In this document: positions 11,807 to 31,803 of the stretch, piece by piece
How positions within the stretch are numbered: position 1 is the first letter of the stretch
Layout of the letters: every line of letters starts with the position of its first letter
Source: Oceanospirillaceae bacterium
GTDB taxonomy: Bacteria > Pseudomonadota > Gammaproteobacteria > Pseudomonadales > Litoribrevibacteraceae
NCBI GenBank assembly: GCA_015665455.1
Contig: JADFAD010000005.1
Location: forward strand, 1 to 64,000
Direction of reading: 5' to 3'
Length of the DNA: 64,000 nucleotides
Position numbers and translations under genes: made by a program
The notes under the pieces: generated by a model
The model's input: only the letters and a program-made list of their open reading frames with translations
Told to the model about the DNA's origin: nothing
Databases searched by the model: none

Positions 11807-14287
11807 ATGACAGGGAACACCTCTTCAGCCTCTAACAACTCAACCAGCACATCTAATAAACCAGATAATATAGCGGAACTGTTGATTAAGGCTCGCTACC
11901 TAACATTAATAGCAACAGCGGCTATCTTTTACATCTGCTTTCTTGGTTTAAAGAACATTACCTTCACAACGGATTATCGTATTTTTTTCAGTCACGATAA
12001 CCCTCATATGTTGGCGTTTGAAAATCTTCAAGAAACCTACACAAAAGATGATTCTCTGCTGTTCGTCATAGAATCCAAACAAGGGAACGTCTTCGAACAA
12101 AAAACGTTATCAATGATTGAAAAGATCACAGATGAAGGCTGGACGGTTCCTTACTCTTCTCGTGTCGACTCCATTACTAACTACCAACATACATACGCTG
12201 AAGATGATGACCTCATCGTCGGTAACTTAATCGAATATGCAGATGAGCTAACCGAAGAAGACTTTCAGAACGCACAACAAATCGCATTAACCGAACCCAT
12301 ATTAAAAGACCGCATCATTTCAAAAGACAGCAGAGTTACGGCAGTAAATGTCACGGTCCGCCTACCGGGAATAAATAAAGTAAAAGAAGTACCTGAGATT
12401 GTTACCCAAGGTCGGGAAATGATCGAACAGTATCGAGCTGAGTACGGTGATATTGCTAACTTCTATTTGGCAGGTTCTGTCATCAATAACAACGCCTTTA
12501 AAGAAGCCTCCGTTAATGATTTAACCAGTTTAATTCCCCTCGCGATGCTATTGGCCATTTTGGGAATCGCAATCTACATGTTCTACGCAAGTAGAAGTAT
12601 CGTAACAACGATATCAGGGACCTTCGCTACTGTTATTATCATTATTGCCTCGATCTGGACGGCTGAAGGCATTGCAGGCTGGTTAGGAATAAACTTATCA
12701 CCACCCGCAGCCAATGCGCCTACGATGATTCTGACACTCGCCATTGCTGACAGCATTCATATTCTTGTGTCATTCTTTTTGGCAAGCCAGCGTGGCCTAA
12801 TTAAGAGAGAAGCAATTAAAGAAAGTTTACGTCTAAACTTCCAACCGGTGTTCCTCACAAGCTTAACCACAATGATTGGCTTCCTTACTCTTAACTTCAG
12901 TGATTCTCCTCCGTTCAGAGACATGGGGAATGTGGTAGCAATTGGCGTTATATTCGCTTGGATATACTCCATCGTTTTATTGCCTGCTTTGATCATGATT
13001 CTGCCCTTCAAGGTCAAAATCACAAAGAAAACAGAACTGCCGTTAATGCGTAAGATTGCCAACGTAACCATTCTGCATCACCGACCTATATTAATAGGTG
13101 TGCTGACGGTTATTATTGGGTTTGGCGCCTTTGTACCAAAGAATGAGCTGTACGATGTATGGGCTGAATATTTCGATGAAAGCATGCCTGTTCGTCAAGC
13201 CATTGATTTCACCCAATTCAACTTAACCGGTATCGCCACCGTTGAATATTCATTGTCTGCGAACGAAGAAAACGGCGTCACTAACCCTGAATATCTGGAA
13301 GGCCTTGAAAAATACACTAACTGGTTAGAACAACAACCGGAGGTGGCTCATGTGAACAGTTTCATTCACGTAATGAAACGTCTGAATAGAAATATGCACG
13401 GTGACGATCCTGCTTGGTATAAAGTTCCGGCCGACCGAGAATTGGCAGCCCAGTACCTTTTACTTTATGAGATTTCATTACCTTTTGGGTTGGATCTCAA
13501 CAACCAAGTAAACATCGACAAATCAGCGACTCGCGTTGTCGTAAGCATTCACAGATTAAGCACCGTAGACCTTCTCGCGTTTGCAGACCGAGCACATGAA
13601 TGGATGAAAGCAAACCTACCAGAATACATGGTCGATCAAGGCTCAAGCCGCGACATTATGTTTGCTCACATTGGTGAAAGAAACATTGACAGTATGCTCC
13701 AAGGAACCGCCATCGCCATCGTATTAATATCGTTGGTGCTTGCCATTGCACTTAAATCGTATCGATACGGCTTACTCAGTCTTCTGCCTAACATTGCACC
13801 TGCCGCCATCGCGTTCGGTATTTGGGGCATTGTAAGCGGTAGAGTTGGGGTTTCGTTATCCATTGTGACCTGCATGACATTAGGGATTGTCGTTGACTAC
13901 ACCGTTCACCTGCTTAGTAAGTACTTACGAGCAAAGAGAGAACAAGGCCTATCGACAGACGATGCAATTCGCTATGCATTCGATACCGTAGGCATCGCAT
14001 TAATAGTGACAACAGCGATATTATGTGTGAACTTCGGAATCTTGGCGTTTTCTAATTTCAGTATGAACTCCCAAATGGGCCTCATGACTGCAATGACTAT
14101 TTTGATTGCCCTAATTCTTGATTTCCTATTCTTACCGGCGCTTTTGAAGTTTTTATCTGAACGTCAAAAGAAACGCAAAGACCCAGCCGACACAGAACGT
14201 GATTCGCAATCGACAAACACATCGAATCAAGTTAATTCCTCGATTCAACAAAAATTCAACAAGGAGCCTGAGCATGAACCGGTCTAA
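11807..14287 (+). CDS. MMPL/RND-superfamily exporter
   Basis: An 826-aa inner-membrane protein with the two-fold MMPL architecture: one TM helix at about 32-52, a large periplasmic loop (about 55-235), a five-helix block (about 240-405), a second helix near 425, a second periplasmic loop (450-620) and a second block (about 625-800). MMPL proteins carry hydrophobic compounds or lipids by proton-motive force. The tail after 800 is polar and Ser/Thr/Gln-rich. A strong AAGGAAG ribosome site precedes ATG 11807. Its end overlaps the start of the LolA-like gene by 14 bp, so the two are translationally coupled and probably act together in moving a lipid or lipoprotein to the outer membrane. Confidence 0.92.
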   Translation: MTGNTSSASNNSTSTSNKPDNIAELLIKARYLTLIATAAIFYICFLGLKNITFTTDYRIFFSHDNPHMLAFENLQETYTKDDSLLFVIESKQGNVFEQKTLSMIEKITDEGWTVPYSSRVDSITNYQHTYAEDDDLIVGNLIEYADELTEEDFQNAQQIALTEPILKDRIISKDSRVTAVNVTVRLPGINKVKEVPEIVTQGREMIEQYRAEYGDIANFYLAGSVINNNAFKEASVNDLTSLIPLAMLLAILGIAIYMFYASRSIVTTISGTFATVIIIIASIWTAEGIAGWLGINLSPPAANAPTMILTLAIADSIHILVSFFLASQRGLIKREAIKESLRLNFQPVFLTSLTTMIGFLTLNFSDSPPFRDMGNVVAIGVIFAWIYSIVLLPALIMILPFKVKITKKTELPLMRKIANVTILHHRPILIGVLTVIIGFGAFVPKNELYDVWAEYFDESMPVRQAIDFTQFNLTGIATVEYSLSANEENGVTNPEYLEGLEKYTNWLEQQPEVAHVNSFIHVMKRLNRNMHGDDPAWYKVPADRELAAQYLLLYEISLPFGLDLNNQVNIDKSATRVVVSIHRLSTVDLLAFADRAHEWMKANLPEYMVDQGSSRDIMFAHIGERNIDSMLQGTAIAIVLISLVLAIALKSYRYGLLSLLPNIAPAAIAFGIWGIVSGRVGVSLSIVTCMTLGIVVDYTVHLLSKYLRAKREQGLSTDDAIRYAFDTVGIALIVTTAILCVNFGILAFSNFSMNSQMGLMTAMTILIALILDFLFLPALLKFLSERQKKRKDPADTERDSQSTNTSNQVNSSIQQKFNKEPEHEPV

Positions 14288-15080
14288 CCCATCGTTTTAC
14301 AAAGCAGCATTGTTTGGCACATTAATCATGGCATCAGCCAATCAAATGGCCATGGCAGAAACAGCAGAAGAAAAAGGACTGGCCATTGCTCAAGAAGCCG
14401 ATAAACGAAATACCGGCTGGCAGGACTCTTCAGCGTCAATGACCATGATTTTACGCAACAAGCGTGGCGATAAAACCACCAGAGACTTGTCTGTAAAAGC
14501 CTTAGAAATGGAAAACGACGGAGACAAAAGCCTCACCATTTTCAATTCTCCAAGAGATGTTAAAGGTACGTCACTGCTGTCCTTCTCTCACAAAGTAGAG
14601 TCTGATGACCAATGGTTATATCTGCCTAAGTTAGGTCGAGTAAAGCGCATTGCGAGCCGAAATAAATCAGGCCCCTTCATGGGAAGCGAATTCGCTTTTG
14701 AAGACATGACGCCTCAAGAAGTTGAAAAATACGAATATAAGTACTTAAGAGATGAAGTGTTTAACGGCATGAACTGCTTTGTGGTCGAGCGTGATCCTGT
14801 GGATAAATACTCAGGTTACACGAAACAGGTCGCATGGGTTGATCAAGAAGAATATAGAACATTAAAGGTAGAATTCTACGATCGTAAAAAATCTCTGCTC
14901 AAAACTATGGAAACCAGCGAATGGAATGAATACCTAGATCAATACTGGCGCCCACATAAAACCACGATGAAAAACCTTCAGACAGGTAAGAGCACAGATC
15001 TTGTAATGAGTGACTTCTCTTTCCGTAACGGTTTAGACGATGGTGACTTCAATAAAAACAGTTTAAAACGCGCCCGCTAA
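14274..15080 (+). CDS. outer-membrane lipoprotein-sorting (LolA-like) periplasmic protein
   Basis: A 268-aa exported protein with a signal peptide ending in AMA (about residues 1-25 from ATG 14274). I prefer this start to the in-frame upstream codon at 14199 because AAGGAG sits 8 bases before it and the signal peptide then starts correctly. The mature protein matches the LolA-like 'outer membrane lipoprotein-sorting' family that pairs with MMPL transporters (MILRNKRGDKTTRDLSVKAL, WLYLPKLGRVKRI, GSEFAFEDM, and the DPVDKYSGYTKQVAWVD strand). The fold is an open beta-barrel that carries a lipid-like ligand through the periplasm. It is coupled to the MMPL gene. A hairpin at 15088-15124 ends the unit. 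Confidence 0.92.
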   Translation: MNRSNPSFYKAALFGTLIMASANQMAMAETAEEKGLAIAQEADKRNTGWQDSSASMTMILRNKRGDKTTRDLSVKALEMENDGDKSLTIFNSPRDVKGTSLLSFSHKVESDDQWLYLPKLGRVKRIASRNKSGPFMGSEFAFEDMTPQEVEKYEYKYLRDEVFNGMNCFVVERDPVDKYSGYTKQVAWVDQEEYRTLKVEFYDRKKSLLKTMETSEWNEYLDQYWRPHKTTMKNLQTGKSTDLVMSDFSFRNGLDDGDFNKNSLKRAR

Positions 15081-15810: not shown

Positions 15811-16710
15811 ATGTTTAAACAATGCTTCACTTACCAAATTACACGACCATTAGAAATCGATGCCGCTGAACTTGAAAAAAGACTCAAAGAATACCCGTTT
15901 AAATCATGCGGTCAGCAAGAACGTAAACGCAATGGCTGGGCAGCACCAGTAAAACAAGCGCCGGATATGCTTGTTCATGAAATCATGGGGTTCTGGGTTA
16001 TAACCCTTAGACAGCAAGAGAAAGTGATTCCACCTTCAGCAATCAATGAAAAACTAGAAGAAAAACTGGCAGAGATTGAAGCCGAACATGGCCGACCGGT
16101 ACGTCGTAAAGAAAAAGCGCAATTAAAAGAAGACATCACCGCCCTATTATTGCCAAACGCACTGTCTCGCACCAATGACACGTTGGCCGTCATTGCACCT
16201 GAAAAGAACATGATGTTTGTCAACGCAGGAAGCTCATCCAAGGCAGAAGAAATCGCCAGCAGTTTACGTAAAGCACTAGGCACTATGCCTGTTGTGCCAT
16301 ATCAAACAGAACTATCACCTGCAACTGTCATGTCTGCATGGCTCAATGGCAATCATGACTTACCACAGCACATGACACTGGGTTATGAAGCGGTTCTGAA
16401 AAGCGACGATGAAGACGGCGGGTCGGTTCGACTAACAGGCATGGACGTAGCCGATGATCATGCCCTGAACTATCTGAATAATGGTATGAGTGTCACTCGC
16501 CTTGCCCTTAATTGGAAAGACAAACTTGATCTAGTCATTGATGATCAGCTTATTATTAAGCGCATTAAGTTGTCTGATACCTATTCAGAAGAAATCCACG
16601 ATGAACTGGGTGAGTCTGATGCCATCAGTCAGTTCACTGGCTCAGTGGCCCTAATCATCACAGAGATGCTGGATGTTATTGCTAGCCTGAACGAAAACTT
16701 CAGTGATTAG
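15811..16710 (+). CDS. rdgC: recombination-associated protein RdgC
   Basis: The 299-aa protein matches RdgC along its whole length (start MFKQCFTYQITRPLEID, the GWAAPV and MLVHEIMGFWVITLRQQEK segments, RKEKAQLKEDI, and LSDTYSEEIHDELGESDA near the end). RdgC forms a ring dimer around double-stranded DNA and limits RecA loading. A complete family-length protein, with no truncation. It follows the exonuclease-like gene by 62 bp, and both could be transcribed together. AGGT lies upstream of ATG 15811 at a wide spacing. Confidence 0.96.
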   Translation: MFKQCFTYQITRPLEIDAAELEKRLKEYPFKSCGQQERKRNGWAAPVKQAPDMLVHEIMGFWVITLRQQEKVIPPSAINEKLEEKLAEIEAEHGRPVRRKEKAQLKEDITALLLPNALSRTNDTLAVIAPEKNMMFVNAGSSSKAEEIASSLRKALGTMPVVPYQTELSPATVMSAWLNGNHDLPQHMTLGYEAVLKSDDEDGGSVRLTGMDVADDHALNYLNNGMSVTRLALNWKDKLDLVIDDQLIIKRIKLSDTYSEEIHDELGESDAISQFTGSVALIITEMLDVIASLNENFSD

Positions 16711-17452: not shown

Positions 17453-20188
17453 CTATCCATTTGCCAAAGATTCCATTCGTACCTTTTGCCACTCCTCCGT
17501 CGGCTTATTCAACGGTAAAAATAATTCAGTCACTTGTTCCTCAGCATTATAACGACTCTCAAAGCCCAACTTTTCAGCCAGCCTCAACATAGCTGAGTTT
17601 TCAGGCAGGACCGTTCCGATCATTGCTAAGGTTTTACGCTTCGTACAATACTGAATCATTTTATTCATCAAAGTAACGCCCAAACCTTCGCCTTTCAGAT
17701 CATCCCGAACCATCACCGCAAACTCTGTTGATACATTATCAGGGTCAGTCCACGTTCTTACTTCGCCAAGAATAGTGTCTTCGCCCAATTCATTTTGCTG
17801 TACAGCAACAAATGCCATTTCACGGTCATAATCAATTTGAGTTAAACGGGCAATTTCTGTTTCGGAAAACTGAGCTTGCCGATGAAAGAACCTAAACCGG
17901 TTGGCTTCAGCCGAAATACTGTCTTGAAACTCAATGATTGCATGGGCATCTTCTGCACGAATAGGTCGAAGAACCACCTCACTCTTCGAGCGTTTCATCA
18001 CTGTCTGCTCAATCAAATGCTCAGGATAACCATGAAAGACTGTGGATTCCTTTGTCCCAACCACACCTGATGCATTATAAATAACCAGTTTATCCTTACG
18101 ATGAAATTGAGCTGAAACTTCAAGTAATGACAACGTTGGCTGATCCATCACCATTTGAGATAAGGACACCAACGCTTTAGAAAGAATCTTCTTTTGCAGT
18201 TCTCCAACCTCACCATTATCTTTCAATAAATGCGACACATAAGAACGGCGAATCAAGTCGCTTGCTAATGTCATATTAAGGGGAGGAAACGCCACCTGAC
18301 GGTCCGCTCTGATATTAACCGTAGAGCCACCAGCACCAAAGAAGATCAATGGTCCAAACTTGCCATCTCGGGTAATACCAAAGTTAAACTGCAATCCGAA
18401 TGAGGGTTTCAATACCTTCTGAGCACTGAAACATAAAATAGGATTTTCTGGATCTTGTTGCTTGTAACGCTTCAATAAGGTCTCTGCCGCTTCAACCAAT
18501 TCCTCTTGATCAAGAATATTACGTTGGCACCCTCTCCATTTAAGCGGATCTTCTCGATATGAAAACGGCATCAGTCGTCGAGAATTAATAACGGTCAAGT
18601 TAACAGGAAATCCAATCTCTTCTACTTTCTGCTGCAAGCTGAGGATATCTTCGTCAAAAACAGTATCCACCATTTCAAAGCCATACAAGCGTACCAAGCC
18701 AACCATCGTATCCGGTTTCAGTACACTGCCAGCAGAGTAAGGTTTTAATAAACGCTTTGAGTCGTCTTTTATTCCTGGAATATTAAGCCGAACCGGTGTT
18801 TCCCGAAGAATAGAACGCGTGAAGTGGTAATTCATTGCATGACGATAGGCTTGCGTTGCAATCTCAGGGCTATTAAATGAAGGAATGGCGTTCTCATCAA
18901 ATAAATCTCGGGCTTGTTGAAGACTGCTTTCACCCACCCAACACATTAACATAGGCACTTTTATGGTCGACTTATGCTCAGCTAGAGTTTCCGCGATTTC
19001 CATCGAGTGTGCATGAGCACTTGGTACATGCAAAACCATTAAAATATCCACATTAGGGTCAGCAGAAATAATTTGAGAAGCCTTTAGGTAGGTTTGCTCT
19101 GAAGCGCCCACGTCCAAGTCAACCGGATTCCTATGAGACCAATATCTAGGAAGCACCTTACTTAATTTATCAATCGTATCAGGCGAAAGGTCAGCCAAAA
19201 GATCACGAGCATGATCACGTAACCGATCACTGGCTACCATAGCCATACCAATGCTGTTTGAAATAATCGCTAACCGATGCCCTTTAAAACGCTTTTGCTG
19301 CTCCAGAATGGGTAAACTTTCCATCAGGTCGATCGGTGCTTTCAAATGCATCACACCCAATCGTCGAAACATTTGTTTATAAATCCGTCCCGTATCTTGA
19401 ATGCCCTCTGCGACCGTCGCTTTTTTCCCATCATACAAAACATTACTGTCGCCTGACCGCACCGCTACGACCAATTTGGATTTTGCTGCGGCCCCCACAG
19501 CAGCCACAAACTTGGCAGGCCGCTTAACATCTTCGACATGGAGAACAATCACCTTCACTGCACGATGCAAAGACAAATAGTCAACAATGTCAGCTAGATC
19601 AACATCGCCTCGATCATCCAAGTTAATAAAATGAGAAAAACCAAAGCCCCTAGCGTAAGCCCAATCTAGGATACTACTTGCCACCGTTCCTGATTGACCA
19701 ATGTATGCCACATTGCCGGGAAGAATGGGGAGATGCCCATAACTGATATTGATGGGGTTAATCGAAGACATTAACCCCAGTGTGTTCGGTCCAATCACCC
19801 GAATATTATGCGCTTTAGCTAACCGCAATACCGCCAAGTTTATGTTGTTATCCAACCAACTGTGCTTACGAGATAACCCCCCCGTAAGTAACATTACTGC
19901 GTGAACGCCCTTCCACACCAATTGCTGCATAATCAGCAATAAGGTTTCCGGTGGCGTACACACCACAGCTAAATCCAACTGTTCAGGCAAAGACTTAATA
20001 CGTTTATAGGTAGGCACACCAAAAATATCATCTTGACGATGTTTATTGACGGCATAAACAGATCCCTGAAAATTACTCTCCAACAAATTCTTTAAAACGA
20101 TCTGACCCATCTTGCCTTCTTTATCAGAGGCACCGATGACCGCAATCGAACGAGGCTCAAAAAAGTACTTCAGATATTTCGTGGCCAT
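17453..20188 (-). CDS. PatZ-type protein lysine acetyltransferase (ADP-forming acyl-CoA ligase domain plus GNAT)
   Basis: This 911-aa protein joins an acyl-CoA synthetase (ADP-forming)-like body to a C-terminal GNAT acetyltransferase, the layout of Salmonella Pat and E. coli PatZ/YfiQ. The CoA-binding domain is at about 1-135 (IAVIGASDKEGKMG near residue 16), the ligase domains reach about 460, and an ATP-grasp-like part is at about 490-700. The GNAT domain begins near EVVLRPIRAEDAHAI (about 738) and ends near 885. PatZ acetylates and inactivates acetyl-CoA synthetase and other proteins; the ligase body acts as an acetyl-CoA sensor. The gene is divergent from an HDAC-like deacetylase across 183 bp. 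Length and layout are complete. Confidence 0.93.
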   Translation of the reverse strand: MATKYLKYFFEPRSIAVIGASDKEGKMGQIVLKNLLESNFQGSVYAVNKHRQDDIFGVPTYKRIKSLPEQLDLAVVCTPPETLLLIMQQLVWKGVHAVMLLTGGLSRKHSWLDNNINLAVLRLAKAHNIRVIGPNTLGLMSSINPINISYGHLPILPGNVAYIGQSGTVASSILDWAYARGFGFSHFINLDDRGDVDLADIVDYLSLHRAVKVIVLHVEDVKRPAKFVAAVGAAAKSKLVVAVRSGDSNVLYDGKKATVAEGIQDTGRIYKQMFRRLGVMHLKAPIDLMESLPILEQQKRFKGHRLAIISNSIGMAMVASDRLRDHARDLLADLSPDTIDKLSKVLPRYWSHRNPVDLDVGASEQTYLKASQIISADPNVDILMVLHVPSAHAHSMEIAETLAEHKSTIKVPMLMCWVGESSLQQARDLFDENAIPSFNSPEIATQAYRHAMNYHFTRSILRETPVRLNIPGIKDDSKRLLKPYSAGSVLKPDTMVGLVRLYGFEMVDTVFDEDILSLQQKVEEIGFPVNLTVINSRRLMPFSYREDPLKWRGCQRNILDQEELVEAAETLLKRYKQQDPENPILCFSAQKVLKPSFGLQFNFGITRDGKFGPLIFFGAGGSTVNIRADRQVAFPPLNMTLASDLIRRSYVSHLLKDNGEVGELQKKILSKALVSLSQMVMDQPTLSLLEVSAQFHRKDKLVIYNASGVVGTKESTVFHGYPEHLIEQTVMKRSKSEVVLRPIRAEDAHAIIEFQDSISAEANRFRFFHRQAQFSETEIARLTQIDYDREMAFVAVQQNELGEDTILGEVRTWTDPDNVSTEFAVMVRDDLKGEGLGVTLMNKMIQYCTKRKTLAMIGTVLPENSAMLRLAEKLGFESRYNAEEQVTELFLPLNKPTEEWQKVRMESLANG

Positions 20189-20371
20189 ATTGAACTTTCC
20201 CTTAATTCTTCTCTATTCCATTGAAAAGCAGTATATTTCGGATATCCATTGAAAGCATCGCTAAAATGAACTTGGATTGGTATAGCTCAATGTTTTGATC
20301 ATTCTATGATGTTAGTTTTTGAATAGAAAATAACTAAAATTATAAAATTCACAAAGGTTGATAGTGTACCT
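20189..20371. promoter_or_regulatory. divergent region between the acetyltransferase and deacetylase genes
   Basis: The 183 bp between the two start codons must hold both promoters. An imperfect direct repeat, TCCATTGAAA(A)GCA, occurs near 20217 and again near 20247. I cannot assign a regulator; a CRP site would be plausible by analogy with other patZ genes but I do not see a convincing match. Confidence 0.35.
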
Positions 20372-21328
20372 ATGTCCGTTACGTTAATAAGCCACCCCGC
20401 TTGCTTAAAGCATACAATGACAGATCATCATCCTGAGTGCCCTGAACGACTTAAAGAAATCATGGCTTACTTAGAAAAACAGCCGTTTTACGATGATCTA
20501 AAAAAAGTACAAGCAACCAAAGCCGACCGAGCTCTCGTAGAAGCCATTCACCCAGCCGGGTATATTGACCAACTCGAAGGCCTCGAACCCGAGAACGGTA
20601 TCATTATGGTAGATCATGATACGGCTTTACGGTCAGGATCTATGGACTCCATTTGGTACGCAGCAGGCGCAGGCTTAAACGCAGTGGATGAAGTCATGGG
20701 AGGCAGCAGCCGAGTAGCGTTTTGTGCAACCAGGCCGCCCGGTCATCACGCAGAGCCCAGAAAAGCCATGGGGTTTTGTTTTTTCAGTAACATCGCCATC
20801 GCGGCCAAATACGCTTTGGACCATTACGGTTTAGAACGCGTTGCAATTATTGATTTTGATGTGCACCAAGCGAACGGCACCATTGAATGTCTGAAAGACG
20901 ACCCACGAGCCTTGGTCTGTACCTCATTTCAACACCCGTATTACCCCAACAGTCATTGGTACGGTTTACCAGAAAATATCATCAACCTCCCCATTGAAGA
21001 ACACAGCACCGGCGCATTCATTCGCCAAGCAGTCCATGATATTTGGGAACCGGCCTTAGAAATCCATAACCCGCAGCTCATCTTAATTTCAGCCGGCTTT
21101 GATGCTCACCGTTTGGATGCAATGGCCACTGTCGATTGGGAAACCCGAGATTACGCTTGGATCACGCGCTGGGTTCAAAATATTGCTTATAAGTATTGCC
21201 AAGGAAAAATGGTCAGCATGTTAGAAGGTGGCTATGCACTGTGCTCATTACCGCAATGTGTGGCCGCTCACATTGGTGTATTCATGAACGATGAGAAATC
21301 CATGATGTTGTCACGCGTTAAACAGTAA
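20372..21328 (+). CDS. histone deacetylase/AcuC-family protein deacylase
   Basis: A 318-aa zinc hydrolase of the arginase/deacetylase fold. The family motifs are intact: ATRPPGHHAEP (general-base His pair at about 125-126), IDFDVHQANGT (zinc ligands Asp and His at about 164-166), SAGFDAH (zinc ligand Asp at about 244) and LEGGYAL (transition-state Tyr near 285). Bacterial members remove acetyl groups from acetyl-CoA synthetase (AcuC) or from acetylpolyamines. The divergent PatZ-type acetyltransferase gene strongly suggests protein deacetylation here, but a polyamine substrate is not excluded. AAAGG lies 13 bases before ATG. Confidence 0.93.
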   Translation: MSVTLISHPACLKHTMTDHHPECPERLKEIMAYLEKQPFYDDLKKVQATKADRALVEAIHPAGYIDQLEGLEPENGIIMVDHDTALRSGSMDSIWYAAGAGLNAVDEVMGGSSRVAFCATRPPGHHAEPRKAMGFCFFSNIAIAAKYALDHYGLERVAIIDFDVHQANGTIECLKDDPRALVCTSFQHPYYPNSHWYGLPENIINLPIEEHSTGAFIRQAVHDIWEPALEIHNPQLILISAGFDAHRLDAMATVDWETRDYAWITRWVQNIAYKYCQGKMVSMLEGGYALCSLPQCVAAHIGVFMNDEKSMMLSRVKQ

Positions 21329-23479: not shown

Positions 23480-23512
23480 TGTTCAAACATTTTGCAGGGA
23501 GCAACGAGAGCT

Positions 23513-26500
23513 ATGTACGCAATTACATCAGGGTTGATGTCCATTCTGTTCATGATCATCAAAGTCATTCTATTTCCCATCCTTTGGCCACTTAAGTTTA
23601 TTTTTAACCGTTTGCTTGGTATCAGTTGGACAGCTCCGATATGGCTTCAAGCGCTCAATAAAAAGCGTCAACTCTCACCGTTCAAGTTTTGGGGAACGAT
23701 TTTCTCATCTGTTTTCATTTTACTCGGCAGCATGGGCGGCTATCTTTGGTATCAATCCATCCCAAAGTCAGCGCAAGTACTCGCGCAACTGTACGCTCCA
23801 GAAGTAACTCCAAACGAGGAAACACTCCGCCCCGAACCGCTCAATATTTACTTTGATTATGAGCATTCGCGTAATTCCGTAATTCCTGATGGTGAACTGT
23901 CGGTCGCCCCTATCGAAGAAGTAGATAATGAAATAACCAAAGGCATACGTTTATTCCCCAACAAAGCAGGGAAATGGCAATGGGTTGGAGATAAACAGAT
24001 CACCTTCATTCCCAAACAAGACTGGCCTGCAGATCAAGCTTACAAAGTGACCTTCGAACCAGAGCTGTTCGCCGATTCAATCGAAATGTCCGAACTGGAA
24101 TACGAATTCACTACCCCAACGTTCTACGTTCAGGCTGAGGACTTCCGTTTATACAAAGACCCAACCAAACAGAACGAACAACGTTTGGTAGCAACGTTGT
24201 CATTCAGTCACGCGGTGAATAAAGAATCCCTTGAAGAGGGATTAGCGCTAGTCGTTAAAAATACAAAAAAGGCGACGGTCACCCCTGAGAACTATTCGTT
24301 TGAAATCAAATACGGCCTTAATGATCGAGAAGCTTACATAACCAGTGCACCAATAACACTAACAGAATCAGAGAGTTATGCTAATTTAATACTGAACAAA
24401 CACGTAAAAGCAGCGGCCAATAATGCAAACTTTAATTCGGTGATCAATGAAAAAATTCTGCTGCCTGACGTTTCAAGTTTCTTAAAAGTCAAAAAAGCAG
24501 ATTTCGATATTTTACGGAATCAAAACAATGAACCAGAGCAAATCTTAACCCTGCAATTTACCGATAGCATCACTGTGCAGGAAATTAAAAACAAACTGGA
24601 GATCCATCTGCTTCCAAAATCAAATAAAAGCTGGAGCATCACACGAGCCCAAAGAGCAACCGTTAATCAAACAGGGCTTACACTGGACCTGATGGAAAAC
24701 GAACGAGACTTTTCCAATCACTACAGCTTAAAGCTGGATATCCCCGAGAACCACAAAGTTTACGTAAAAGTAAAACAAGGTTTACGCTCTACTAGTGACT
24801 ATAAACTCACAAAGAAATACCAAACCGTACTCAGAACGCCTGACTATCCTCGTGAAACTAAGATCATGGGCGACGGATCATTAATGTCTCTCAACGGAGA
24901 TCAAACCTTAAGTTTCATGGCTCGCGGTCACAAGGCAATTAAAGTCACGCTAGGCAAGTTGATAGACCACCAACTGAACCATTTAATCAGCCAGACGGGT
25001 GGAGATATCTCTAACCCCTATTTTCAAAGCTATTTATTTGATCAAGACAACATCACATCCAGCTACGAAAAAATACTTCACTTAAGTGCCACGCATCCAA
25101 AGGCACTGACATACGCCTCCCTGCCCCTTACACCGTACTTAAAAAAGCAAGGTATGGGCGTATTTTTCATTAAAGTCGAAGGCTGGAATCCTGATTCAAA
25201 CTACCGAGCGTACGGAACAGAAGATCAACGCCTAATTATGGTAACTGACCTAGGAGTCATCGTTAAAAAGACCCGAGATTACAATCGACAAAATGTCTTT
25301 GTGCAGTCACTGAGCTCCGGAAAACCAATTAAAAACGCAAACGTCCAAGTGCTTGGGAAAAATGGGTTAGCGGTATTCAATGGAAAAACCAATGCATCAG
25401 GCATGGTTGAAGTGCATGATTTATCGGCCTTAAGAAAAGAGAAAAGACCGACCGTGTATGTTGTTAGCCAAGGCAAAAACGTCTCATTCTTACCTTTTGA
25501 TAAAGGCAGTAGAAGAGTTAACTACTCACGCTTTGATATCTCAGGCAGCAATCATTCTGGTGATGCCAATACAAGACTGACCGCGTATGTGTTTTCTGAT
25601 CGAGGCATTTACCGCCCCGGTGAAACGGTCAAGTTAGCCAGTATTGTTAAAAATCGAAATTTCCAGCACAGCGAAGGTATCCCTCTAGAGTTTGAAATCA
25701 AAGACGCTCGCAACAAGCGCGTATTGAAGAAAAAATTAAAGCTGAACAGCAAAGGCTTTTTTGACGTTGATTTAAAAACAGAACTGACCAGCAATACCGG
25801 TAATTATCAAGCCAATGTCTACTTACTGACCAAGCGAGGCTATAGAGATTACCGCCTAGGAGGTGTCAGTTTCAAAGTCGAAGAATTCCAACCAGATACC
25901 CTAAAAATTGAAACCCAGCTATCTCCGAAACAACTGAAAGGCTGGCTAAACGAACCAAAGCTGTCAGGCCAAGTGGATCTTAAAAACTTATTCGGTACAC
26001 CAGCACAAGACCGTAAAGTCCATGGGACAATGGAACTAACCCCCATTTCATTTGGATTCCCAGAATACAAAGCCTATCACTTCATTGACCCTCTACGAGA
26101 TGACAAAGCACAACTCAGGAACGTCACTGAAGCACTCGAAAGCCAAACAACCAATGCTGATGGCATCGCGAACTTTACAATGGATTTATCGCAATACAGC
26201 AAAGGAACCTACCGTTTGAATTTCACTGCTGAAGGATTTGAAGCCGGTGGCGGCCGCAGTGTGTTCGCCAGTAGCAATGCGTTGGTTTCTCCTTTAGACA
26301 CGTTAGTTGGATACAAAACCGACGGCGAACTGGATTACCTCAAGAAAGATCAAACTCGCAAGCTGTCTTTCATCGGAGTAAACCACCAGTTGGAGCAAGT
26401 TGCCTTAGGGAAACTGACCCTCAAGCGTATTTTGAAGCAGCCTATTTCTACCTTAGTCATGGCGAACGATGGAACGTACTCTTATCAATCCGTTATCAAA

Positions 26501-29293
26501 GATCGAGTACAGCAAGAAACCCAAGTTGAACTGACTGGTATAGGGTTTGATTATTCTCTACACACCAAAGAAGCAGGCCAATACCAACTGCAAGTCTATA
26601 ACGATCAAAACGAGTTACTGACCAAAGTCGATTACCATGTCATCGCGGCTGGCAACATGTCAGGCCAATTAGAAAAGAACGCCGAACTCACATTGAAACT
26701 GGACCGCAAAGATTACAAAGCAGGCGATGTCATCGAAATGAACATCATTGCGCCTTATTCGGGGTCAGGTTTGATCACCATCGAAAGCAACAAAGTGCAT
26801 AACTATAAATGGTTCAAAACCAGCACAAACAGCACGGTAGAAACCATTACGATACCGAATGACCTCGAAGGAAATGCCTATGTAAACGTCGCATTTGTTC
26901 GATCACCGGATTCAAAAGAAATATTTACCAGCCCTCTGAGCTATGCGGTAAAACCATTCAACATTGATCACAGTGCACGTGAAGTTGATATCACCTTAAA
27001 CACCAAACCTTTAGTACGCCCAGGCTCGCCGATGAAGATCGGTTATAAAACCAACAAGCCATCCAACATCGTGGTGTTTGCTGTGGATGAAGGCATTCTT
27101 CAAGTAGCAAATTATCAACAACCTAAGCCTTTGGATCACTTCCTGACCAAAACAGCCCTTCAAGTAAATACTTACCAAATATTGGATTTGATCTTACCTG
27201 AATATCGCATCTTATTAGAACAAGCAGGTATTGGCGGTGGTGCTCAAGGAATGAAGCTCTTAGGAGCAAACCTCAATCCATTCAGCCGGACGTTGGATAA
27301 ACCTGCCGTGTATTGGTCTGGCATTATCTCAGCTGATCAAAATGAACGCACTGTCACCTTCGATGTGCCCGATACATTCAGTGGCAGTCTAAAAGTGATG
27401 GCCGTTGCCGTAAGTGATGCAGCAATGGGCGCTACCAGCAAAGACAGCATTGTACGAGGGCCATTTGTATTGTCTCCGAATGTACTCACGGTTGCGGCAC
27501 CTAACGATCAATTCGAAGTTGTCGTCGGCGTGGCCAATGGCATCGAGGGTTCAGGCAATAACGCGGAGGTAAATGTCACGGTTGAGGTCTCTGATAACCT
27601 GACGATTGTGGGCGACAGTTCAAGTAAACTGCTCATCAGCGAAGGCAGTGAAAAGAAAGCCCGATTCAAACTGTTAGCAAAATCCGAATCATCAAAAGTA
27701 CTGGGGGAAGCCAAAGTCACCTTCATTGCACAACACAATGGTGAAATATCCCAACGATCAGCAACACTCAGCTTGCGACCAGCCTCTTCTTTTGCAACAC
27801 GGATAACCACAGGCCACAGTGAAGATGACATTACAGTGGATCTCACCCCTACGCTTTACTCAGCCTTCAGTGATAAAACAGCCACGGCCTCTGCAAGCCC
27901 AATGGTATTAACAGAAGGCCTAACAGAGTATTTAAACAACTACATTCACGGTTGTACCGAACAAGTGGTCAGTAAAGTATTTCCTTGGGTGACCCTCTCC
28001 CAAGAGCGACCAGAACAACGGGAAGAAACGCGTGAAAAGCTACGTATTCTGTTCGATAAGCTCAGATCACGACAAGTCTCAGACGGCGGTTTCGGTTATT
28101 GGCCAAACGGTCGCAGCCGAGTGTTCCCGTCATTATATGCAACGCATTTACTGACGGAGGCTAAGCTTTATAACTATCCGGTGCCCAAGGATATTCTGGA
28201 GCGAGCATTACAAAGAGTTCGTGACATTGCTCGAGAACAAACCGAAAGCTTACGTGAAGCGCGTCAGCGAGCCATAGCCATCTATTTACTGACGCGAAAC
28301 CAAATCGTGGCGACCAGTTATTTAGTGGATCTTCATGAATCGTTACAGAACAGCAATTCGGATTGGGAACAAGACATCACAGCAGCCTACCTTGCCGCCA
28401 GTTACCAGTTACTAAAGAAAGACGACATTGCAGAAGAGTTGATCAATCACTACGAATTGGGCAAACCAGCCCATGAACGAACAGACTTCCAATCCGAACT
28501 GACGATGGATGCCCAATACGTCTACCTAGTATCAAGTCATTTCCCAGAACAGCAGAAGGCGCTTGATGTCGATACTACGGTAATGAGCTTATTAAAAGCG
28601 CCTATCAACGGTCGAATCAACACCATCAGTTCGTCCTACACAACCATGGCATTGAGCGCTTACAGTCAACAAAATCGTAACCGCTACGGCCAAGACAATG
28701 TAACATTCACAGACATCAGTAAAGCGCTGGCTAAACATCAAATCTTGTCTCTGAATACCAGTGCCGACTTCCCAGAAGTAGACCTCTCCTTACCGAGCAA
28801 TCAGCTAAACATTGATGCAAACCACCCGTTCTTCTATCAAACCATTCAGTCCGGTTTCGATTCTCAACTACCAACCGAATCAAACTATCAAGGATTAGAA
28901 GTTTTTAAAGCGTTCTTAGACGAAGAAGGCAATGTCACGACTAACTTAACGCAAGGTCAAGAAGTCAATGTTCGGGTCCGAGTTCGGGCCACCAGCGGAG
29001 ATACAGTTACCAATACCGCCGTGATTGATTTACTGCCCGGCGGTTTCGAAGTCGTTCGAAGCTCTGTTCCGAGAGAGACTGACGGATGGCGAGCGGATTA
29101 CGTCGACATAAGAGAAGATCGAGTCGTTTTCTACGGCACGTTCAATAAAGGGATTACCGAACTCAATTACCGAGTTAAAGCAACATCGGCGGGCGAATTT
29201 ACAATTCCTCCGATTCACGCTGAATCCATGTACGATCCGGCGATATTCGGTCACTCAGCCGCCAGTAACGTCTCAGTGAAAGCCGAGGATTAA
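23513..29293 (+). CDS. bacterial alpha-2-macroglobulin, membrane-anchored, thioester-type
   Basis: A very large (1926-aa) periplasmic protease-trap protein. I choose ATG 23513 over the TTG at 23492: GGGAG lies about 12 bases before it. Unlike E. coli YfhM, which is a lipoprotein, this one has two N-terminal hydrophobic segments (about 1-35 and 58-80) and no lipobox, so it is anchored in the inner membrane. The body contains the MG-type beta domains, a bait-like region, and the thioester motif C-T-E-Q in YIHGCTEQ with the Cys at about 1481, which is intact. Such proteins trap attacking proteases after cell-wall breach. The pbpC-type gene follows, as in E. coli. Confidence 0.94.
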   Translation: MYAITSGLMSILFMIIKVILFPILWPLKFIFNRLLGISWTAPIWLQALNKKRQLSPFKFWGTIFSSVFILLGSMGGYLWYQSIPKSAQVLAQLYAPEVTPNEETLRPEPLNIYFDYEHSRNSVIPDGELSVAPIEEVDNEITKGIRLFPNKAGKWQWVGDKQITFIPKQDWPADQAYKVTFEPELFADSIEMSELEYEFTTPTFYVQAEDFRLYKDPTKQNEQRLVATLSFSHAVNKESLEEGLALVVKNTKKATVTPENYSFEIKYGLNDREAYITSAPITLTESESYANLILNKHVKAAANNANFNSVINEKILLPDVSSFLKVKKADFDILRNQNNEPEQILTLQFTDSITVQEIKNKLEIHLLPKSNKSWSITRAQRATVNQTGLTLDLMENERDFSNHYSLKLDIPENHKVYVKVKQGLRSTSDYKLTKKYQTVLRTPDYPRETKIMGDGSLMSLNGDQTLSFMARGHKAIKVTLGKLIDHQLNHLISQTGGDISNPYFQSYLFDQDNITSSYEKILHLSATHPKALTYASLPLTPYLKKQGMGVFFIKVEGWNPDSNYRAYGTEDQRLIMVTDLGVIVKKTRDYNRQNVFVQSLSSGKPIKNANVQVLGKNGLAVFNGKTNASGMVEVHDLSALRKEKRPTVYVVSQGKNVSFLPFDKGSRRVNYSRFDISGSNHSGDANTRLTAYVFSDRGIYRPGETVKLASIVKNRNFQHSEGIPLEFEIKDARNKRVLKKKLKLNSKGFFDVDLKTELTSNTGNYQANVYLLTKRGYRDYRLGGVSFKVEEFQPDTLKIETQLSPKQLKGWLNEPKLSGQVDLKNLFGTPAQDRKVHGTMELTPISFGFPEYKAYHFIDPLRDDKAQLRNVTEALESQTTNADGIANFTMDLSQYSKGTYRLNFTAEGFEAGGGRSVFASSNALVSPLDTLVGYKTDGELDYLKKDQTRKLSFIGVNHQLEQVALGKLTLKRILKQPISTLVMANDGTYSYQSVIKDRVQQETQVELTGIGFDYSLHTKEAGQYQLQVYNDQNELLTKVDYHVIAAGNMSGQLEKNAELTLKLDRKDYKAGDVIEMNIIAPYSGSGLITIESNKVHNYKWFKTSTNSTVETITIPNDLEGNAYVNVAFVRSPDSKEIFTSPLSYAVKPFNIDHSAREVDITLNTKPLVRPGSPMKIGYKTNKPSNIVVFAVDEGILQVANYQQPKPLDHFLTKTALQVNTYQILDLILPEYRILLEQAGIGGGAQGMKLLGANLNPFSRTLDKPAVYWSGIISADQNERTVTFDVPDTFSGSLKVMAVAVSDAAMGATSKDSIVRGPFVLSPNVLTVAAPNDQFEVVVGVANGIEGSGNNAEVNVTVEVSDNLTIVGDSSSKLLISEGSEKKARFKLLAKSESSKVLGEAKVTFIAQHNGEISQRSATLSLRPASSFATRITTGHSEDDITVDLTPTLYSAFSDKTATASASPMVLTEGLTEYLNNYIHGCTEQVVSKVFPWVTLSQERPEQREETREKLRILFDKLRSRQVSDGGFGYWPNGRSRVFPSLYATHLLTEAKLYNYPVPKDILERALQRVRDIAREQTESLREARQRAIAIYLLTRNQIVATSYLVDLHESLQNSNSDWEQDITAAYLAASYQLLKKDDIAEELINHYELGKPAHERTDFQSELTMDAQYVYLVSSHFPEQQKALDVDTTVMSLLKAPINGRINTISSSYTTMALSAYSQQNRNRYGQDNVTFTDISKALAKHQILSLNTSADFPEVDLSLPSNQLNIDANHPFFYQTIQSGFDSQLPTESNYQGLEVFKAFLDEEGNVTTNLTQGQEVNVRVRVRATSGDTVTNTAVIDLLPGGFEVVRSSVPRETDGWRADYVDIREDRVVFYGTFNKGITELNYRVKATSAGEFTIPPIHAESMYDPAIFGHSAASNVSVKAED

Positions 29294-29355
29294 CCCCAAG
29301 GCCAACAACAAGTAAACAGTTCTTACAATAAACAGCACTTATAAAGCAGTAGAAT

Positions 29356-31803
29356 GTGATTTCAAAGAGCATTTCGTCAAAGCAACCTAATAAGAAAAAA
29401 CAACACCCAACGGCCAGAGGACTGGCCACGGGGGTTGCTTTGTTCTGCTTCATGTTGCTGCTTATTCTGTGGCTGTCCCCTAAGCCATCCCTGTTTTCTT
29501 GGCAAACTTGGTCAACCGCCTACGTTGACCGAAATGGTGAGCTCCTGCGGCTTACCCTCGCTGACGACGACAAATATCGACTTAAGACTGACTTAACAGA
29601 CGTTTCTCCGCACCTAGTCAAAGCGGCTTTATTGTATGAGGATCAATATTTCTATGATCATCCGGGCGTTCACCTCCCTGCTCTGTGGCGTGCCTTTTGG
29701 AGCACGTATGTTTTAAAGGAACGGCAAATCGGAGCATCCACCATTACTATGCAGCTGGCCAGAATTGCATTTGATATTGATTCTTCCACGATTCCAGGAA
29801 AGCTCCAACAAATCGCGGCGGCTCTTTGGATCGAAAGGCATTACACCAAAGAACAAATCCTGACGGCTTATTTAAACCGCGTGCCTTATGGTGGAAACAT
29901 TGAAGGTATCTCTGCTGCCAGCTTAATTTATTTTCAAAAGAAACCAGCACAACTTAACCCCGCCGAAGCAATGGCATTGGCTGTTATCCCCCAAAACCCC
30001 TCCAAAAGAAACCCAGTCACTGCTTCGGGCTATCAAGCGATGATTGAAGCAAGACAACGCATTTATGCTCGTTGGCATCAAGCTCAATCGGGTTCTGACG
30101 ATTCTCTCGCTCGTTCAACGAATAGCGACACCCTACAACTGTGGATGAACATGCCACTTCAAATACATACGACCAAAGACCTGCCGTTCCAAGCCCCTCA
30201 CTTTATTGAGCACCTCAGGAAAACGCAGCCAAATCTCAGAAATGAAGTACAAACAACTCTGAATGTTCAATCCCAAAACAGCATTCAAAAGTGGGTCAAC
30301 CTATGGTTAGAAGAACAATCAGAATTACAGCTCAATAACGCTGGAGCACTGCTCATCAATCATAAGACCATGGAAATTGAAGCTTGGTTAGGTTCAGCCA
30401 ACTTCTTTGACAATGCCATCGAAGGTCAAGTGGACATTGTTACCGCAAAACGCTCACCAGGCTCCACGCTTAAGCCCTTTGTCTACGGGTTAGCATTACA
30501 ACAAGGTGTCATCCACCCCAAGACCTTGTTAAAAGATACCCCCAGTCGTTACGCGGCCTATACACCAGAGAATTACGATCTTGCATACGCGGGTCCGATT
30601 TCAGCAACGGATGCATTAATCACCAGTCGAAACGTCCCTGCGGTTCGATTAACGGCGAAATTAAAGTCCCCTGACTTATACCAGTTTCTGACAGAGGCTC
30701 AAATTACCAAAGTAAAAGCAAAGTCCCATTACGGTTTGTCCTTAGCGCTTGGCGGCATGGAAATCACCATGTTAGAGATGGCTAAGTTGTATGCAATACT
30801 TGCAAATCAAGGGTTATGGCAACCTGCAAAGTCTTTATTAACGTTACCATCTAGCAAAACATCCAGCAAAACTCACTCATCCTCCAACGAAACAATCTCC
30901 TCACGTCAATTGATGTCTCCCGAAAGCGCTTGGCTCATTGAAAACATGCTTCAACAGAACCCTGCACCAGACAGTTTAAATTCAGATCATGTAAAAACTT
31001 TAACTCAACAACCGAACATTGCATGGAAAACAGGCACCTCATTCGCCTTTCGAGACGCATGGTCCGCCGGCTTTGATGAAGATCACGTACTTGTCATCTG
31101 GCTTGGCCACTTTAATAGCGAGAGCAACCCTAACCTTATTGGCCGATCCGCTGCAGGCCCTTTGTTCTTTGATGTATTCCGTGACTTACAAACCGGCTCT
31201 GAGTCTTTCTTCCAACCAGTGCGAAGTAAACCCGACAACATCAAACAAGTCGATATATGCGCCTCAACCGGAGCATTACCAGGCCGCTTCTGCCCACGAA
31301 CTGAGAAAGGCTGGTTTATTCCCGGCGTCTCTCCTATAAAGGTGTCTGATGTCTACCGTCAAATCCCCATCGTAACTGCCACAGGCAAACGAGCATGTTA
31401 TCCACAAGCCAATAAAACTCACATGGCTGTTTATGAGTTTTGGCCATCGGACGTATTAAGGCTCTTTCAAATGGCCGGAATCCAGCGCAAACAACCGCCT
31501 GCATTCGCCGAACCCTGTGACATTGAAGACTTATCCACAGGAGGGGCTAAACCCATAATACGAAGCCCGTTGAATCGACTAATTTATCAAATTGCCAACG
31601 GTCAGGATGAAATCCCCTTCCAAGCTATTCTAGACACCGACGTTGAAACAACCTATTGGTTCCTCAATCAAAGCTTCATCGGCAGTGCCACCAAGAACAC
31701 CCCTTTATTCTGGAAAGCTAAACCAGGCCATTATCAAATCACCGTTGTAGACGATAAAGGCTTAAGTGATTCCCTTGAATTTGAAGTTAGAAAAATAAAC
31801 TAG
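29356..31803 (+). CDS. pbpC: penicillin-binding protein 1C
   Basis: An 815-aa bifunctional peptidoglycan synthase. A single TM anchor (about 27-44) is followed by the glycosyltransferase-51 domain (LLYEDQYFYDHPGV, catalytic Glu near 95; STITMQLARI) and the transpeptidase domain (SPGSTLKPF with Ser near 371; TSRN near 425; WKTGTS near 558). The C-terminal part (about 700-815) is the BiPBP_C beta domain of PbpC. It starts at a GTG 62 bp after the alpha-2-macroglobulin stop, and the pair are functional partners: PbpC repairs the wall while the macroglobulin traps protease. No in-frame ATG lies before the TM, so GTG is the only sensible start. Confidence 0.95.
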   Translation: MISKSISSKQPNKKKQHPTARGLATGVALFCFMLLLILWLSPKPSLFSWQTWSTAYVDRNGELLRLTLADDDKYRLKTDLTDVSPHLVKAALLYEDQYFYDHPGVHLPALWRAFWSTYVLKERQIGASTITMQLARIAFDIDSSTIPGKLQQIAAALWIERHYTKEQILTAYLNRVPYGGNIEGISAASLIYFQKKPAQLNPAEAMALAVIPQNPSKRNPVTASGYQAMIEARQRIYARWHQAQSGSDDSLARSTNSDTLQLWMNMPLQIHTTKDLPFQAPHFIEHLRKTQPNLRNEVQTTLNVQSQNSIQKWVNLWLEEQSELQLNNAGALLINHKTMEIEAWLGSANFFDNAIEGQVDIVTAKRSPGSTLKPFVYGLALQQGVIHPKTLLKDTPSRYAAYTPENYDLAYAGPISATDALITSRNVPAVRLTAKLKSPDLYQFLTEAQITKVKAKSHYGLSLALGGMEITMLEMAKLYAILANQGLWQPAKSLLTLPSSKTSSKTHSSSNETISSRQLMSPESAWLIENMLQQNPAPDSLNSDHVKTLTQQPNIAWKTGTSFAFRDAWSAGFDEDHVLVIWLGHFNSESNPNLIGRSAAGPLFFDVFRDLQTGSESFFQPVRSKPDNIKQVDICASTGALPGRFCPRTEKGWFIPGVSPIKVSDVYRQIPIVTATGKRACYPQANKTHMAVYEFWPSDVLRLFQMAGIQRKQPPAFAEPCDIEDLSTGGAKPIIRSPLNRLIYQIANGQDEIPFQAILDTDVETTYWFLNQSFIGSATKNTPLFWKAKPGHYQITVVDDKGLSDSLEFEVRKIN

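Follow-up and report, generated by a model that had tools for sequence, protein, structure and literature searches.

Conserved linkage of a Pat-type lysine acetyltransferase gene to a class II-like zinc deacetylase gene in Gammaproteobacteria

In the 64,000-nucleotide stretch of contig JADFAD010000005.1 (assembly GCA_015665455.1, Oceanospirillaceae bacterium) analysed here, which we call the window, the gene for a type-I protein lysine acetyltransferase (PAT; 17453–20188, minus strand) and that for a class II-like Zn-dependent deacetylase (20372–21328, plus strand) face away from each other. This linkage exceeds chance and recurs across many families of the class, and our search of the open-access literature found no report of a Pat/zinc-deacetylase gene linkage. 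We propose, with a probability of roughly 0.7, that the two genes constitute a dedicated reversible lysine-acetylation module acting on acyl-coenzyme A (CoA) synthetases. Both are complete open reading frames, of 911 and 318 amino acids (aa) respectively, and are separated by a divergent intergenic region of 183 base pairs (bp; 20189–20371). Short blocks in this region are common to the window and to a genome of the sister genus (e.g. 20228–20237); no promoter or operator was identified from the alignment of these two sequences, a promoter scan not having been run.

Recurrence of the gene pair in the order and the class

The two genes are paired in the same divergent arrangement in the sister-genus genome (G001), whose PAT and deacetylase are 75% and 81% identical to those of the window. 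Among 194 sampled genomes of the order, the deacetylase is matched at 1e-40 in 88, seven of which have matches weaker than 1e-70 (2.5e-41 to 4.9e-55) and were dropped, leaving 81; a clear PAT (1e-80) is found in 50, and 49 of these 50 also contain the deacetylase. The two genes lie 36–328 bp apart in 36 of the 49 genomes with both (28 divergent, five tandem, three convergent), and these adjacent pairs span nine families and 18 genera. When the loci of the remaining 32 deacetylase genomes were read, ten were seen to hold a more diverged PAT adjoining the deacetylase, divergent in every case; as these ten were found only beside the deacetylase they are unusable for co-occurrence, for which 49/50 is the fair figure. 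In total the PAT adjoins the deacetylase in 46 of these 81 order genomes (38 divergent, five tandem, three convergent). Leaving aside those that hold both genes apart (see below), the other deacetylase genomes of the order are G143, with another writer, and 21 without a writer in the available flanks, some of which are short (L218, L236, L242, L248).

The wider sample comprised 369 genomes of the class, taken as Gammaproteobacteria from the seven named loci described below, with the PAT in 86, the deacetylase in 99 (1e-60), both in 65 and the two adjacent in 36. Reading the 21 loci with the PAT only added one further pair (G427), so that at least 37 of the 369 genomes carry it (31 divergent, four tandem, two convergent), a lower bound in that the 34 deacetylase-only loci of the class were not read for diverged PATs. 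With two genomes (G000 and G072) common to both samples, there are 81 distinct pair genomes. Fisher p values, in which phylogeny is ignored, are 8e-29 for the class and 5e-23 for the order. A linked PAT also occurs at seven of 80 named deacetylase loci, labelled Gammaproteobacteria or Granulosicoccaceae, which stand among the class rows on the deacetylase tree and may overlap with the 81 pair genomes.

Could this adjacency be an ancestral gene order, passively retained and with no functional link behind it? The tree (124 rows, thinned by omitting 49 of the 73 named loci without a linked PAT, and with eight over-long reads trimmed at the first stop) has divergent pairs on both sides of its midpoint root, so that inheritance explains part of the pattern, and the pair counts are uncorrected for phylogeny. 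The tandem and convergent forms, however, each require at least two changes on the same tree, and these rearrangements still keep both genes together. Nor are the flanking genes conserved: clustering of the neighbours of 84 loci classed as linked (among them G143 and two loci where kilobases separate the genes) gave, besides a catch-all group of 13 loci, no neighbour family in more than eight, and no further conserved gene of the module was found among these 84. As the writer can moreover be exchanged while the eraser stays (next section), we regard passive gene order as a very improbable explanation of the linkage.

The writer, its exchange and the zinc eraser

The Pfam domains of the PAT are, in order, CoA_binding_2, Succ_CoA_lig, a sub-threshold Ligase_CoA_2, ATP-grasp_5 and a C-terminal GNAT domain; its near full-length matches are 9it0 and 9isq, residues 4–894 aligning with the 886-aa chain of 9it0, 'Protein acetyltransferase' (E 4e-127). 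E. coli PatZ, as we take it, is likewise of 886 residues. In the GNAT domain, placed by Pfam and the 9it0 alignment at residues 738–877 (17558–17977, minus strand), Glu822 is aligned to Glu809 of 9it0, which we assume to be catalytic, and Glu occupies this column in 82 of 86 aligned Pats. Residues 6–706 (18071–20173, minus strand) form a region resembling nucleoside diphosphate (NDP)-forming acyl-CoA synthetases, as judged from domains, alignments and a comparison of the loop of a His-keeping relative with that of 4xyl. Here Val259 stands in the column of His254 of the 4xyl alpha chain, presumably the catalytic His of the synthetase, and the window PAT reads SYRED where relatives have HKSD or HKSE, so the synthetase-like region looks catalytically dead. 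This is in keeping with the description of Pat synthetase domains as inactive for want of the catalytic His (PMC8556138). A His is kept at this column in 48 of the 86 aligned Pats, which suggests that many relatives are possibly active synthetases; the Pat at L173 (L173:1986–4664), for example, has the loop SHTGALVG against SHTGSIAG in 4xyl, and the many relatives with such a phospho-His loop may carry a working synthetase fused to a GNAT of their own. Short PAT-like frames at L217 and L221–L223, considered as PATs without a GNAT domain, were rejected, since the frames run into the ends of the loci.

A second kind of writer accompanies the same deacetylase at three further loci. The deacetylase of Paraglaciecola chathamensis (L052) and that of G143 follow in tandem, a few bases after a fusion of acetyl-CoA hydrolase/CoA-transferase domains to a GNAT, and in G538 the tandem deacetylase begins 42 bp after the fusion gene. 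The fusion lies directly before the deacetylase at L052:4154–6001, L211:393–2312 and G538:C4:3520214–3522046. We searched for it in 73 genomes, nearly all selected for a deacetylase without an adjoining PAT (all 34 class and 22 order genomes with the deacetylase only, 16 of the 42 in which the two genes are not adjacent, and G089, which has only a weaker deacetylase match); 11 were matched, and the fusion was clear in two (G143 and G538), in both beside the deacetylase. By domain content the GNAT is the part common to the fusion and to Pat, and this suggests that the acetyl mark is what the two kinds of locus have in common. The same search matched a 615-aa frame with a stop in G008. At two loci of family f39 (L234 and L216, in G039 and G178) the neighbourhood of the deacetylase includes a stand-alone CoA-transferase (about 405 aa), separated from it by a small frame, and GNAT is absent from the CoA-transferase match at both.

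The PF00850 match of the deacetylase has E 8.6e-76, and the enzyme is class II (HdaH/HDAC6)-like, of the cluster 1 type of Graf et al. 2024 (PMC11532494). Its closest solved structure among the matches listed is the histone deacetylase (HDAC) superfamily protein 5ji5 of Burkholderia (Paraburkholderia) phymatum, at 43% identity, Z 51.4 and a root-mean-square deviation of 1.0 over 305 residues, followed by 5zmp, HdaH, HDAC6 and HDAC10. An AlphaFold model has a predicted local distance difference test score (pLDDT) of 95.5. The catalytic machinery is identical in all 173 aligned deacetylases, the window protein included and eight of them read past a stop: the His125-His126 dyad of the RPPGHH motif (20744–20749), the Zn ligands Asp163 and His165 (20858–20866) and Asp244 (21101–21103), and the catalytic Tyr288 of the EGGY motif (21233–21235), all on the plus strand. 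RPPGHH and EGGY mark deacetylases rather than long-chain deacylases (PMC11532494). The first-pass annotation had described a complete PatZ-type acetyltransferase and an AcuC-like deacetylase with intact zinc ligands, divergent across 183 bp, and our analysis bears out all of this apart from the AcuC-like label, for which there is no support: class I is named in none of the best 60 of 131 sequence matches, a separation made by match names, and no class-I-named chain is among the 50 structure matches listed, which in itself excludes nothing. A search of plasmids gave 41 records at below 60% identity.

An enzyme of this type might instead work on acetylpolyamines or another small molecule, the two genes sharing regulation only. 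The gatekeeper position, Glu in HDAC10, is Met251 in the window protein (21122–21124, plus strand) and Met, Leu or Ile in 132, 40 and one of the 173 sequences, never Glu; the window protein reads A250-M251-A252 and not the PEG of the HDAC10 type. AMA also stands where the PIS motif of bacterial polyamine deacetylases would be expected, a motif that bacterial ApaH of cluster 4 combine with L1 and L2 loops forming a head-to-head dimer (PMC11532494). Linkage to two GNAT writers likewise suggests protein acetylation, though GNATs could acetylate small molecules. Activity on small molecules would agree with the occurrence of the deacetylase without a PAT, with the annotation of the gammaproteobacterial sub-cluster 1d mainly as ApaH (PMC11532494) and with structural superposition, in which the fit of the polyamine deacetylase HDAC10 comes close to that of HdaH (Z 46.3 versus 46.8). 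On balance we think a small-molecule substrate unlikely, and prefer the lysine-acetylation module.

Proposed action and the place of sirtuins

In the proposed module the PAT would sense acetyl-CoA via its apparently dead acyl-CoA-synthetase region and would acetylate the conserved SGK-motif lysine of adenosine monophosphate (AMP)-forming acyl-CoA synthetases, switching them off, and the zinc deacetylase would hydrolyse the mark to acetate without nicotinamide adenine dinucleotide (NAD), so restoring synthetase activity. We infer both enzyme activities, the sensing of acetyl-CoA and the acetyl-CoA synthetase Acs as a substrate from the known families, the action on Acs in particular from Pat/CobB, AcuA/AcuC and RpPat/LdaA/SrtN. 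The window's own genome encodes an Acs with the sequence PKTRSGKIMRR. In Rhodopseudomonas palustris, RpPat, LdaA and SrtN share acyl-CoA synthetases as targets (PMC6640162, PMC8603916), and AcuA and AcuC act as a writer and eraser pair (PMC13121692, PMC11255334). Were the deacetylase mainly to strip autoacetylation from the PAT, the eraser would tune the writer and not the targets, a role that would suit its tight linkage to the PAT and the autoacetylation-induced oligomerisation of E. coli PatZ reported in the title of one paper, with oligomerisation described in PMC8556138. The same deacetylase is, however, also linked to the CoA-transferase-GNAT, without the synthetase region of Pat, and LdaA and AcuC act on synthetases; we consider this role improbable.

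Several observations weigh against a dedicated module, or against its zinc enzyme taking the place of a sirtuin. Both genes are present and non-adjacent in 13 of the 81 order genomes with the deacetylase and in 29 genomes of the class, the deacetylase is missing from 20 of the 86 class genomes with a PAT, and 73 of the 80 named deacetylase loci, many of them betaproteobacterial, are without a PAT in the available flanks. The acs gene lies on another contig and not beside the pair, and RPPGHH and EGGY are found in polyamine deacetylases too (PMC11532494). The window's own genome holds two SIR2 proteins of 236 and 244 aa, the first having NF001755 and the CobB model NF040867 as its best models, both below cut-off. 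SIR2 shows no depletion in pair genomes, being matched in 12 of 37 against 79 of the 369 in the class sample and in 37 of 46 against 141 of the 194 in the order sample, and of the 20 class genomes that have a PAT and lack this deacetylase, 14 are without a SIR2 match as well. These 14 may have other erasers, or the mark may not always be reversed.

As pair genomes are no poorer in SIR2 than the samples, replacement of the sirtuin by the zinc enzyme is unsupported. We rejected such a replacement in this organism on its two SIR2 genes, and a general scarcity of SIR2 in pair genomes on the counts from class and order. The first-pass annotation had read the two genes as a writer and eraser, the zinc enzyme standing in for the sirtuin that usually partners Pat in enterobacteria. 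The pairing itself is upheld by its conservation in relatives, from the sister genus to the order and class samples above; the substitution fails in this genome, where one of the two SIR2 proteins found is nearest the CobB-type models, below cut-off. In this organism the SIR2 proteins and the deacetylase probably have overlapping functions, like SrtN and LdaA in R. palustris. The pair is often present where no sirtuin was found: a SIR2 match is absent in 25 of the 37 class pair genomes, including 22 of the 31 with a completeness of 95% or more, in nine of the 46 order pair genomes (counted by eye), and in 34 of the 81 distinct pair genomes. The window's own genome also has a second HDAC of 304 aa (L004:1444–2358, contig C8), beside what by eye is a uvrC-like gene, and its GGTHHA and GGGY resemble the cluster 5 motifs of Graf et al. 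(PMC11532494).

Of the flanking genes searched, those closest to the pair encode RdgC, an SRPBCC-type protein and an M74 peptidase. The RdgC gene was confirmed at 15811–16710, two genes from the PAT, and one neighbour cluster of eight linked loci, possibly including the window, is RdgC-like by eye and is read as local synteny. Further out, the window encodes at 23492–31803 a bacterial alpha-2-macroglobulin (1933 aa) and then a transglycosylase/transpeptidase with a BiPBP_C domain, and at 11807–15080 an MMPL transporter frame overlaps that of a LolA-like outer-membrane lipoprotein-sorting protein.

Known systems and significance

The Pat (PatZ/YfiQ) of Escherichia and Salmonella has the same type-I GNAT architecture as the window PAT, and an SGK-motif Acs is encoded in the window genome. 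The partner of Pat there is the sirtuin CobB, whereas the window PAT has a linked zinc deacetylase; a PF00850 search of 14 control genomes gave no match in E. coli. In Bacillus, acuABC with its divergent acsA links writer and zinc-eraser genes, as at the window pair. The eraser AcuC, however, is class I (cluster 2c) while the window enzyme is class II-like, and acuB (CBS-ACT) and acsA accompany writer and eraser in Bacillus whereas neither stands beside the window pair. The writer is AcuA in Bacillus, which we take to be without an acyl-CoA synthetase region, and a type-I Pat here. Closest to our proposal is R. palustris, in which acetylation by RpPat is reversed by the Zn-dependent LdaA and, for some targets, by the sirtuin SrtN; LdaA is likened to the window deacetylase by description and not by sequence. 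The ldaA and pat genes are presumably not neighbours there.

The combination of a Pat writer and a zinc eraser is thus already known from the biochemistry of R. palustris. What seem new are the conserved linkage, its class-wide reach, its presence in genomes where no sirtuin was detected, and the exchange of the writer. A broader reading, which we offer tentatively and hold to be somewhat doubtful, is that a zinc, NAD-independent eraser would be the original and commonest linked partner of Pat in the class, Pat-CobB being a special case, and that the eraser would be modular, staying in place as the writer's acyl-CoA-sensing half is exchanged between an NDP-forming synthetase, perhaps active in many relatives with the phospho-His loop, and a CoA-transferase. 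The lack of SIR2 depletion in pair genomes slightly weakens this broader reading.

Few bacterial classical deacetylases have, to our knowledge, an established physiological substrate, and the conserved linkage to Pat gives one group of them a likely role. It predicts that Pat-type regulation would often be reversed by zinc-dependent hydrolysis and not by NAD, for which pair genomes lacking a sirtuin match would be a clean test case. If true, the control of acetate and acyl-CoA metabolism in these bacteria would be uncoupled from redox state and would be sensitive to HDAC inhibitors.

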